From positions 1-36,088 of IMG/VR virus record IMGVR_UViG_3300024517_000050: DNA of 36,088 nucleotides, one strand, 5' to 3'. Under the pieces are notes generated by a model, which made no database searches, was not told the origin of the DNA, and worked only from the letters and a program-made list of their open reading frames with translations. Position numbers and translations under genes: made by a program. Positions within the stretch are counted from its first letter, which is position 1; each line of letters begins with the position of its first letter. The DNA is from a virus. Shown one piece after another: positions 32,992 to 36,005 of the stretch.

Positions 32992-33410
32992 ACTGTGATC
33001 GGGTCGCCTGTCCGACGTGCCACGGAACCGGGGTGGTCGACGCGAGTCTCCCGACCGGAACCGTCCGGACCCGGACCCGGCGCACCGCGATGGACACCAG
33101 CGTCACCGCCGCCGTTCTACTGACTAGCGAAACGTGTCGCAAACACCACATTCGAATCCTCACGATTCTGCGTCGGCAGCCGCTCGGGTTGGCTGACTTC
33201 CAAATCACCGACGCATACAACAACGAGCACCCGGGGACATCGGCGTCCACGCTGCGGGCCCGCCGCTCCGAGTTGATGCACGCCGGATTCGTTGTCGATT
33301 CAGGGTGGCGCCGACCGACACGGGACACGGGTCGCCCGTCCGCTATCTGGTCGATCAGCGATCTCGGGCTACGGGCGTTGCACCAACTCGAGGACGCCAA
33401 GTCAACATGA
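32988..33410 (+). CDS. Zinc-motif plus winged-helix DNA-binding protein
   Basis: This 140-residue protein starts with MNCDRVACPTCHGTGVV, a DnaJ-like CxxCxGxG motif with an extra Cys, and then has a winged helix (about 55-135): RILTILRRQPLGLADFQIT, SASTLRARRSELMHAGFV, RPSAIWSISDLGLRAL. This resembles regulators such as MarR-type or phage-type wHTH. A second start at 33090 would give the winged helix alone. It may be a transcription regulator. ATG 32988 overlaps the preceding stop. Confidence 0.6.
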   Translation: MNCDRVACPTCHGTGVVDASLPTGTVRTRTRRTAMDTSVTAAVLLTSETCRKHHIRILTILRRQPLGLADFQITDAYNNEHPGTSASTLRARRSELMHAGFVVDSGWRRPTRDTGRPSAIWSISDLGLRALHQLEDAKST

Positions 33411-34117
33411 GGAAGCCAGACGCCCACGTCTACTTCGCCGTCGCCCTCATCGTCGGACTGCTCGCCGGCGTCCAAGCCGTCGCCGGCCAACAGCGAACCA
33501 TCGACGAAATCAGCGAACCCGCTACGATCGGAACACAGCTACCGGCTGGGACAACGGTTGTGGCCGGGACCGGGGCAGGGACGGTAGCCGCATCGTCCCT
33601 GCCCTCCCCGGCGCCGGTCGTCCGCATCACACCCCAAATCCAAGCCACCGACACGTTGCCGCCACCTCCCGAACCGATCGTGTGGGGATTATCCGGCACC
33701 ACCGACACGTCACGTTGCACACAGTTCGAGCCGATGCTTACCGAACTCGCACCGCCGGCCGGATGGGACGTTGTGAAGATGTCGAAACTGATGCGCCGCG
33801 AATCGGGGTGCTGCCCGCAAGTCGCCACCTTGTCGTTCCCGACTTCTACGACGTGGCGCGAGTTGCGTGGCGGTGATGTCGCGACGGAAGCCTGCCAGTT
33901 TCTGCGGGTGGCATCTACATCGCATCGGTCGGACACCGGCCTGTTGCAGATCAACGGCATCAACTACGACCGGGCCCGGTGCGGGTCATCGTGTGTCGTT
34001 CACGCTACCCAAGCCGAACTAGGCGATCCCGTTACCAACATTCAGGCTGCCGCTGACCTCTGCCAATGGTGGGTCGATAACGGGTCGTCTTGTTACCAAC
34101 CGTGGGGGACATCATGA
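33407..34117 (+). CDS. Membrane-anchored lysozyme-like transglycosylase
   Basis: A short N-terminal hydrophobic segment (YFAVALIVGLLAGVQAVAG) is a signal/anchor. A Thr/Ala/Pro-rich linker follows, then a lytic transglycosylase (SLT)-like domain from residue about 110: KLMRRESGCCPQVA carries the likely catalytic Glu, RSDTGLLQINGINY is the family's GLLQIN signature, and NIQAAADLCQWWVDNG is the final helix. Multiple Cys suggest disulphides outside the membrane. The enzyme should cut peptidoglycan. It may be the lysis enzyme or a cell-wall helper; no amidase gene was recognised. Confidence 0.75.
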   Translation: MRKPDAHVYFAVALIVGLLAGVQAVAGQQRTIDEISEPATIGTQLPAGTTVVAGTGAGTVAASSLPSPAPVVRITPQIQATDTLPPPPEPIVWGLSGTTDTSRCTQFEPMLTELAPPAGWDVVKMSKLMRRESGCCPQVATLSFPTSTTWRELRGGDVATEACQFLRVASTSHRSDTGLLQINGINYDRARCGSSCVVHATQAELGDPVTNIQAAADLCQWWVDNGSSCYQPWGTS

Positions 34118-34365
34118 GTGATCGGACAACATCGTCTGAAATGAACAGGATAGCCCAGGCGGACGATATTGTCCGCCGCAACCAGCACATCTTCGGCCCG
34201 TGGGAGCGCACCGGCCGTGAGGTTCGGTTGGTCAAGGTTCCCACCATTGTCAGGGGATTGAGTGCCACTGTCGTTACCTCCGAACGCCTATACATCGAGG
34301 TCAATCACGAACGGCGCAAGGTGTGGAAGTTCATCGGGTACGAGGAGAGGACGACGGAGTCATGA
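34114..34365 (+). CDS. Hypothetical protein, 83 aa
   Basis: ATG 34114 overlaps the upstream stop (ATGA) and the stop overlaps the next start (34362). The protein has a helix at the start (EMNRIAQADDIVRRNQHIF) and beta strands in the second half (VPTIVRGLSATVVTSERLYIE). No motif is recognised. Confidence 0.6.
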   Translation: MSDRTTSSEMNRIAQADDIVRRNQHIFGPWERTGREVRLVKVPTIVRGLSATVVTSERLYIEVNHERRKVWKFIGYEERTTES

Positions 34366-34904
34366 CTGACACCCCGGAGTTCCCTACCCGCCGACCTAGA
34401 CGCCCTCCGGGGCGAATGCCCGACGACATGTTCGCCAGACGTGACGCCGTGAGCGCCGTCGGATTCCCGTGGCACGTCGTCGATGGCGTTCCGAACGCAG
34501 ATCGATATCACCTGCCTATGACGATCCCGCCCGCCGAGTGGTCGCCGCAAGAATGCTACGAATGTGAAGACGACGGCTGGTTCGACGACCTCGACAACGA
34601 TGGCGGGTCGGTCCGCTGCTCGTCGTGTGGCGGCACGGGGCAGCACACCTTCGGGGTCGAAGTAAGGATGGACGATTGGGTCGGGCCGTACACCGTCACT
34701 AAGCGGGTGCACGTCGTCCAGACGTTGCCGATCGTGACGACCAGTGACTACGTCCCAAACGTCCCCTGCGTTGAGATCACCGATCAGGGATTGTTGATCC
34801 TGCACTACTCCACGGATGGGGTGATGCACTCATCGCTGGCGATCACCCTGCCACCCGACGCTGCCCCTGGTATGTACGCCATCGAACTGATGGTGACGCC
34901 GTGA
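34362..34904 (+). CDS. Zinc-motif protein, 180 aa
   Basis: This protein has a Cys pair set CYEC (about residue 67) and CSSCGGTG (about 88), a DnaJ-like zinc motif with Asp-rich spacing. Residues 95-170 form a beta-rich domain (VEVRMDDWVGPYTVTKRVHV, PCVEITDQGLLILHYSTDG). The zinc part could bind nucleic acid or a partner. I do not recognise the family. ATG 34362 overlaps the previous stop, and the following GTG 34901 overlaps its own stop (GTGA). Confidence 0.6.
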   Translation: MTDTPEFPTRRPRRPPGRMPDDMFARRDAVSAVGFPWHVVDGVPNADRYHLPMTIPPAEWSPQECYECEDDGWFDDLDNDGGSVRCSSCGGTGQHTFGVEVRMDDWVGPYTVTKRVHVVQTLPIVTTSDYVPNVPCVEITDQGLLILHYSTDGVMHSSLAITLPPDAAPGMYAIELMVTP

Positions 34905-35002
34905 GCCCCGCAAGCTACCCGACCTGTGTCGAATGTTCCCACGCCGTCATCGCACACCTCGACATCGACCGCACCGGCACCCGAGAAACCCGCCGGCCGT
35001 GA
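34901..35002 (+). CDS. Very small Cys-pair protein, 33 aa
   Basis: GTG 34901 overlaps the preceding stop and TGA 35000-35002 is one base from the methyltransferase ATG at 35004. The peptide starts MSPASYPTCVECSHAVIAHL and ends with a basic tail. A CxxC and the tidy overlaps support a real gene, but it is short. Confidence 0.45.
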   Translation: MSPASYPTCVECSHAVIAHLDIDRTGTRETRRP

Positions 35003-35003
35003 C

Positions 35004-36005
35004 ATGGTTGTACATCCCCTCACACTCGTGTCCCTCTGCGACGGATACGGAGGAACAGAACTCGCTCTCCGATCCGTGGCACAGGTACGAACCGTGGCTC
35101 GTGTTGAGCGGGACGCCTACGCAGCGGCCATCCTCGTGGAACGGATGGGCCAGGCGCGCCTGGATTCATGCCCTATCTGGGATGACCTCATCACCTTCGA
35201 CGGCGCAGCGTGGCGCGGACGCGTGGATATCGTCGCTGCCGGTTTCCCCTGTCAACCGTTCTCGACCGCTGGCACCAGAGGCGGTACTGACGACGACCGA
35301 TGGCTCTGGCCGGACATCGCACGGATCATCGCTGACGTGGAACCCGGCTTCGTCTTGTTGGAGAACGTCGGACAGCTTGTTGCCCACGGATTACCCGAAA
35401 TCCTCTGTGCCCTTGCCGCGCTCGGGTTCGATGCGGAATGGGGTTTGCTCGCCGCGTCAGCCGTTGGCGCCCCTCACCGACGTGAACGGTTCTGGCTTGC
35501 GGCCCACCGCCCGATCGTCAGACGGGGCGAGCGGCTCAACGGCTCACTCACGAGCGGACTTCCGGCCGACGCTGAAACAGAAAGCGCAGCAGATGTGGGG
35601 TACGCCGACGGCGAGAGACGACCAGAAGTCGCCCGAAGCACACCTAGCAATGAAAGCCCGCATGGGTGGCGGTCGAACCGAACCGACCTCACTGACAGTC
35701 CAGGTCAAGATGTGGCCCACACCACGGGCCTCGAACGGCGAGAACCGGACCACCAAGAACGCCCCGAGCCACGGGACGACACACGGCCTGACGCTCGCCG
35801 GGGAGGCTTCCCGCCACGCCCCGACGACCACGACGGATGGGCCGACTGGATCACCCAGGGCGGACCTCAACCCGTTCTTCGTCGCCACACTGATGGGCCT
35901 CCCCCCGGACTGGCTGACGCACTCCACCTCGGCGGTAACGGACTCGTGCCGCAATGCGCTGCACACGCCTGGGCACAACTCATCGAACGGGGAGGCTTGA
36001 CGTGA
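35004..36005 (+). CDS. C5-cytosine DNA methyltransferase
   Basis: This 333-residue protein has a C5-methyltransferase catalytic half: SLCDGYGGTELAL (motif I, residues 10-22), GFPCQPFS with catalytic Cys83 (motif IV), LLENVGQLV (motif VI, about 118-126) and PHRRERFW (motif VIII, 157-164). The C-terminal half in this frame is charged and loosely ordered but ends LHLGGNGLVPQCAAHAW, matching the conserved GN(A/G)VVPQ motif. ATG 35004 is preferred over a longer start at 34926 because the small gene fits before it. It methylates cytosine, probably protecting phage DNA from restriction. The +1 frame is also methyltransferase-like. Confidence 0.85.
   Translation: MVVHPLTLVSLCDGYGGTELALRSVAQVRTVARVERDAYAAAILVERMGQARLDSCPIWDDLITFDGAAWRGRVDIVAAGFPCQPFSTAGTRGGTDDDRWLWPDIARIIADVEPGFVLLENVGQLVAHGLPEILCALAALGFDAEWGLLAASAVGAPHRRERFWLAAHRPIVRRGERLNGSLTSGLPADAETESAADVGYADGERRPEVARSTPSNESPHGWRSNRTDLTDSPGQDVAHTTGLERREPDHQERPEPRDDTRPDARRGGFPPRPDDHDGWADWITQGGPQPVLRRHTDGPPPGLADALHLGGNGLVPQCAAHAWAQLIERGGLT
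35569..36000 (+). other. Out-of-frame methyltransferase-like segment overlapping the gene 3' half
   Basis: In the +1 frame relative to the methyltransferase, the DNA has no stop from 34933 to 35998. From about 35569 it reads KQKAQQMWGTPTARDDQK, then VKMWPTPRASNGE, then LNPFFVATLMGLPPDWL and a tail of Ser/Thr. MWPTP and LNPxFVxxLMGxPxxW are standard motifs in the 3' half of many phage and bacterial C5-methyltransferases. There is no clear start for it by itself, so expression would need frameshifting, an internal start, or it is a leftover of a past frame change. Confidence 0.5.

Follow-up and report, generated by a model that had tools for sequence, protein, structure and literature searches.

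Complementary selection on two overlapping reading frames points to a probable two-subunit C5-cytosine methyltransferase in phages

Introduction

The small subunit of the C5-cytosine methyltransferase M.EcoHK31I is read in another frame within the gene of the large subunit. M.EcoHK31I and M.AquI have both been named two-polypeptide C5-methyltransferases, and in M.EcoHK31I (YGGCCR) the large subunit carries motifs I-VIII and X, the small polypeptide carries motif IX, and the predicted recognition domain is placed in the large subunit (PMC3404938). M.EcoHK31I has also been termed naturally split (PMC3439449). In M.AquI (CYCGRG), motif X is found in the small subunit.

Here we describe a gene from a virus, contained in a stretch of 36,088 nucleotides (IMG/VR record IMGVR_UViG_3300024517_000050, hereafter the window). 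Its frame-0 reading, M, is a C5-methyltransferase, and its +1 reading, B, is a second protein. The closest known enzyme is M.EcoHK31I, likened here by its published motif layout: it is made of two polypeptides with motifs I-VIII and X in the large chain, and M of the window has the same set. B has an LNP segment at the place of motif IX, as judged from relatives that have these parts in a single frame, and this segment bears no significant resemblance to the canonical motif. The window differs from M.EcoHK31I in that the predicted recognition domain of that enzyme is assigned to the large subunit, whereas the recognition-like region selected here belongs to the +1 protein, and M.EcoHK31I is part of a restriction-modification system, whereas this is a viral gene. 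Unlike in M.AquI, motif X of the window lies in M, but 11 related loci have it in B, and M then ends just past motif VIII in most of those inspected, as described for M.AquI.

We propose that the gene encodes two proteins in overlapping frames, and that these very probably form one C5-cytosine methyltransferase together. Within the searchable literature, three things appear to be new: that phages carry this arrangement so widely, that selection on the two frames is complementary along the gene, and that the +1 protein holds the recognition-like region; no paper on this overlap in phage methyltransferases was found in the literature searched.

Results

Two fully overlapping reading frames in the window

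The features of the locus are collected in Table 1. The preliminary description of this DNA had the methyltransferase open in frame 0 to its end at GGNGLVPQ, with a stop codon coupled to the next gene, and this is confirmed: M reads GGNGLVPQ...GGLT at its C-terminal end, and the following gene begins at GTG 36002, within the stop codon of M. The +1 frame had been described as open over the 3' half with three motifs. All three are read there, but the extent was underestimated, since the +1 frame stays open from one end of the gene to the other. The motif I region is named after the corresponding motif of C5-methyltransferases.

Table 1. Features of the methyltransferase locus (window positions).
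Feature	Position	Strand	Remarks
Small upstream ORF, VSPASYPTCVECSHAVIAHLDIDRTGTRETRRP	34901..35002	+	Stop TGA 35000-35002 overlaps B GTG (GTGA), 1 nt before M start
B, +1-frame ORF	34999..36000	+	GTG to TGA, 333 aa as M, begins MTWLYIP...
Double start	34999..35006	+	B GTG 34999, M ATG 35004, 5 nt apart
M, frame-0 C5-methyltransferase ORF	35004..36005	+	ATG to TGA, 333 aa; last full gene in window
Motif I region, LVSLCDGYGGTE	35025..35060	+	Frame 0
Motif IV, AGFPCQPFS, catalytic Cys	35238..35264	+	Frame 0
Motif VI, LLENVG	35355..35372	+	Frame 0
Motif VIII, GAPHRRERFW	35466..35495	+	Frame 0
Linker	35496..35865	+	+1 frame selected; frame 0 open, without amino-acid selection (family substitutions and window trio)
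Degenerate PTP unit, LRPTARSSDG	35497..35526	+	+1 frame
PTPxARD unit, MWGTPTARD	35593..35619	+	+1 frame
PTPxASN unit, MWPTPRASN	35710..35736	+	+1 frame
LNPFFVATLMGLPPDW, place of motif IX	35866..35913	+	+1 frame; between VIII and X in single-frame relatives
Motif X, GGNGLVPQ	35931..35954	+	Frame 0; region shows frame-0 selection across the family

Catalytic motifs I, IV, VI, and VIII of C5-methyltransferases were all located in M, and motif X was present at its C terminus. M matched Pfam PF00145 (DNA_methylase; E = 1.6e-31) over residues 7-169 only, corresponding to motifs I to VIII, and phrog_363 (E = 1.7e-50) over residues 4-326. The B protein of the window matched phrog_1008, to which PHROGs gives the label 'DNA methyltransferase' (E = 4.2e-25), and so did the B proteins of two close relatives, at E = 6e-30 for one and 4e-17 for the other; these are L001 and L081, with 53% identity to B of the window in L001 and 59% in L081. 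No significant match to B was obtained in Pfam and NCBIfam, or in the PDB by sequence. The phrog_1008 profile matches B proteins but carries the label of the enzyme, while the catalytic domain of the phages concerned sits in another frame and matches phrog_363. B proteins have matches in four PHROGs families (phrog_1008, phrog_27243, phrog_26627, and phrog_31772), half of them under the label 'DNA methyltransferase' and half under 'unknown function', so that the labels mix both subunits.

The two frames are under selection in different stretches of the gene

Both frames are open in L001 and L081, the close relatives from IMG/VR. In the catalytic half, differences between the window and these two loci at M codon positions 1, 2, and 3 were 34/30/59 and 34/30/60, and for residues 195-240 they were 24/5/7 and 21/6/5. 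First positions in frame 0 are third positions in the +1 frame, and the linker differences within this trio concentrate there. The contrast between the catalytic half and residues 195-240 was significant (P = 2e-8), with the two comparisons treated as independent though both include the window.

The same pattern was found across the family, where 144 independent pairs (86 in an earlier version) were compared for per-site differences at codon positions 1/2/3 of M. The values were.184/.122/.334 for motifs IV-VIII and.135/.085/.328 for the motif X region, against.381/.144/.107 for the linker core and.191/.085/.076 for the LNPxxVEWLMGxPxGW segment. By this distribution over codon positions, frame 0 is the coding frame of the catalytic motifs and motif X, and the +1 frame is that of the linker and the LNP segment. 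Selection thus acts on frame 0 in motifs I-VIII and motif X, whereas the linker, with its PTPxASD repeats, and LNPxxVEWLMGxPxGW are selected in the +1 frame alone. The linker sequence of M drifts, yet its frame stays open, and the 5' half of B is likewise open without visible selection. We considered selection on this 5' half and rejected it: third positions of M, which are second positions of B, change there as freely as elsewhere in M, so beyond the open frame there is no sign of selection on B in this part. The earlier impression that both frames look selected is right, but the selected parts of the two frames do not coincide. The assumption that frame 0 probably prevails does not hold in the linker, in which substitutions track the +1 frame alone.

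The arrangement recurs in diverse phages

A tblastn search with B in phage records, followed by scans of viral contigs and bacterial genomes, yielded 503 loci. B lay exactly in the +1 frame of M in all 422 loci with matches to both proteins and in all genome loci; in L054 and L421 the overlap threshold was not reached. Among about 500 loci, none had B without an overlapping M. The same arrangement was present in phages as diverse as Escherichia N15 (gene 58), Salmonella SEN4, Burkholderia BcepC6B, Acinetobacter ABMM1, Lactobacillus Lc-Nu, and Synechococcus S-H1.

In the Paenibacillus larvae phages Redbud (g50/g51) and Lily (gp62/gp63), the pair has been deposited as a methyltransferase and an 'internal gene' in the +1 frame, and g51 is the B protein. 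B of these phages starts inside M, some 60 codons past the M start, whereas B of the window starts at the M start. At two loci the annotated gene is B itself, namely the 'cytosine-specific methyltransferase' of Acidovorax phage Alfacinha1 (L085 1504-2637) and a 'hypothetical protein' of Synechococcus phage Ssp-JY39 (L086 1498-2613), and the catalytic methyltransferase in the other frame is unannotated in both. In Gordonia phage Float294 (gp62/gp61) the gene is split with motif X in B, and both proteins are annotated as DNA methylase. Other loci with motif X at the end of B and not in M include L033, L090, L122, L136, L263, L300, and L486.

The single-frame relatives were Seagreen, Tweety, L050, L063, and L080. 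In the Mycobacterium phages Tweety and Seagreen the catalytic motifs are followed by PTPxAxD repeats, FPEWMMGWPAGW, and motif X, unlike the window all in one frame. L050, L063, and L080 are intermediate forms, with the LNP segment and motif X in the frame of M and the PTP repeats still in the +1 frame. The B profile matched single-frame methyltransferases at the LNP segment (E = 1.7e-8). An old frame change among homologues had been one of the options raised in the preliminary description, and it is borne out to the extent that some relatives hold parts of the +1 reading in the methyltransferase frame.

Several loci depart from the common form. In L001 (1436-3622) no stop closes the B frame where the methyltransferase ends; the reading continues in frame through the next gene, 728 aa in total, and B may be fused to the downstream protein. 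In L264, a Paenibacillus relative, B is broken across frames and frame 0 has a B-type end (WPTPAAQD, WAECLMGFP), possibly after a recent frame change or through a sequencing error. L421 (2916-3816), on a Citrobacter amalonaticus plasmid near an integrase, has an unannotated B open for 300 aa and an M of only about 60 aa; it is probably a decaying copy.

Stop codons and start codons argue for two separate initiations

Expected numbers of stops were obtained by synonymous shuffling, with M codons shuffled for the +1 and +2 frames and B codons shuffled for frame 0 of the linker. Over motifs IV-VIII of 311 distinct homologous genes, 3 stops were observed in the +1 frame against 336.5 expected, with no comparable loss in the +2 frame of the same region (1001 against 1065). 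Over 6257 codons of genes retrieved by the frame-0 query irrespective of B, a single stop occurred in the +1 frame, compared with 129 in the +2 frame; the frame-0 query for L001-L080 contained linker peptides and may favor genes with similar linkers. In the linker it was frame 0 that was depleted of stops (102 observed, 1152 expected), being fully open in 350 of 363 genes against 33.5 expected, while the third frame had 1743 stops and 1692 expected.

In ABMM1-type loci, the ATG of B lies exactly 4 nt after the M start (RTGA-ATG) in 129 of 160 cases, with ATG (66), GTG (45), or TTG (18) as the start codon of M. A Shine-Dalgarno tetramer was found in 95 ABMM1-type loci, mostly 3-5 nt from the M start, equal to 7-9 nt from the B start. 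Stops in the +1 frame are common in this group up to the ATG of B and absent past it. In the group of the window, the B start precedes or overlaps that of M: the window, L001, and L081 have RTGACATGG at this junction, and L085 and L086 have ATGTGG. The Shine-Dalgarno signal of the window gene is weak, and the overlap of the B GTG with the stop of the small upstream ORF suggests translational coupling. As a general start of B we also considered the internal ATG at the DD motif that follows motif IV, and discarded it since codon counts did not single it out.

These data bear on programmed ribosomal frameshifting, which would produce a chimera that passes from frame 0 to the +1 frame after motif VIII and returns to frame 0 before motif X. 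Such a product would agree with the selected frame, which switches at exactly these two places, and with the single-frame relatives, which share this order of parts. However, frameshifting does not need an open +1 frame before the shift, nor an open frame 0 in the linker, and stops are depleted in both. Because B has its own conserved start adjoining that of M, and because the +1 frame is free of stops upstream of its selected part, we rejected frameshifting after motif VIII as the main model and regard it as improbable altogether. The positions of the starts favor two initiations. Of the options raised in the preliminary description, frameshifting thus fares badly and two products are favored by the sequence evidence, with both frames open and selected in complementary parts. 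That homologues keep only frame 0 open, or that changes in the +1 frame are neutral, had been named as outcomes counting against the claim; when examined across the family, neither held.

From the openness and complementary selection across the family, together with the conserved starts, the gene of the window can be read as encoding two proteins.

The +1 protein as a putative recognition subunit

Most likely, M and B are subunits of a single methyltransferase whose specificity comes from B, and it is the relatives with both parts in one frame and those with motif X in B that lead us to this reading. M would be the large catalytic domain, in which an unselected linker connects motifs I-VIII to the helix of motif X. 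B would start at its own codon, in the window 5 nt before that of M. Its N-terminal half would be a mere +1 echo of the catalytic motifs of M, and its selected part would hold the PTPxASD-type repeats at the place of the target-recognition domain and LNPxxVEWLMGxPxGW at the place of motif IX. The two proteins would be translated from neighboring starts and assemble in trans, and B would set the sequence specificity. That B is made in this virus, binds M, and recognizes DNA is what we infer from sequence.

The predicted structure of M from the relative L442 has a catalytic core largely at pLDDT 75-96, a linker (residues 169-232) under 50 and predicted to be disordered, and a C-terminal helix; the top match of its fold was M.HhaI (Z 20.5, 189 residues, 2.4 A). 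B alone was poorly predicted, with a mean pLDDT of 53.6, and a recognition-domain fold of B is therefore a proposal. The resemblance of the LNP segment to canonical motif IX (LTPKEC...GYP) was weak and not significant (hhalign probability 0.03%, 17 columns, with one of four canonical methyltransferases). Alignment of the single-frame relatives to canonical methyltransferases by hhalign was significant only up to motif VIII, so motif IX is not placed by it; the assignment of the LNP segment to the place of motif IX rests on its position in the relatives. A single-chain C5-methyltransferase has the recognition domain and motif IX in the catalytic chain, whereas the linker and the LNP segment of the window are selected in the +1 frame.

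Alternatively, B could be a separate protein with a role of its own, for instance a regulator or an anti-restriction factor, and no subunit of the methyltransferase. A B that has no confident fold when predicted alone and no significant Pfam or PDB match would fit this, and the interaction of B with M is putative. Yet M would then be left without a folded and selected recognition region, B-type segments occur inside the methyltransferase chain of single-frame relatives, motif X moves into B at some loci, and among about 500 loci B was always accompanied by an overlapping M. We give a separate role little credence.

Discussion

Our results lead us to suppose, with somewhat more confidence than doubt, that these genes constitute a large unrecognized class of phage C5-methyltransferases. 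Catalysis and target recognition would be divided between two fully overlapping frames under complementary selection, and wherever one frame is at work the other would be mere filler, unselected yet free of stops. With starts a few bases apart the subunits would be made together, while specificity could evolve through changes that are neutral in the catalytic protein.

There is next to no chance that frame 0 is the sole gene and that the +1 frame is open by accident, through high G+C and conserved methyltransferase motifs, a reading that is already refuted for the family: the G+C of the window gene is about 65%, its openness taken alone is modest evidence (0 stops in the +1 frame from the M start to motif VIII, 2.54 expected from synonymous shuffles, P = 0.014), and the 5' half of B shows no selection at the amino-acid level, but the depletion of +1 stops persists in the 96 genes with 45-55% G+C (0 observed, 126.9 expected), frame 0 behaves as a non-coding frame in the linker, and canonical C5-methyltransferases of the same host genomes (n = 14) show no such depletion (53 stops, 55.8 expected).

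Hundreds of phage and prophage records annotate just one of the two selected proteins, and in a few of them the annotated one is the +1 protein. If M and B are subunits of one enzyme, the annotated 'methyltransferase' would be expected to be inactive or non-specific when expressed alone. The family would also provide a large natural test of how two fully overlapping genes partition selection from end to end, and of the way in which a recognition subunit can evolve apart from its catalytic partner.

Upstream of the gene, the small ORF at 34901-35002 (33 aa) has a CxxC pattern, and its 4-nt GTGA overlaps with the preceding gene and with B form a chain of coupled starts. Two ORFs further upstream were inspected by eye. 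The ORF at 34323-34904 (CYECEDDGW...CSSCGGTG) has a zinc-binding pattern of the DnaJ type, and the one at 33305-34117 (RRESGCCPQ...GLLQINGINY) resembles a lytic transglycosylase or a lysozyme-like wall hydrolase.
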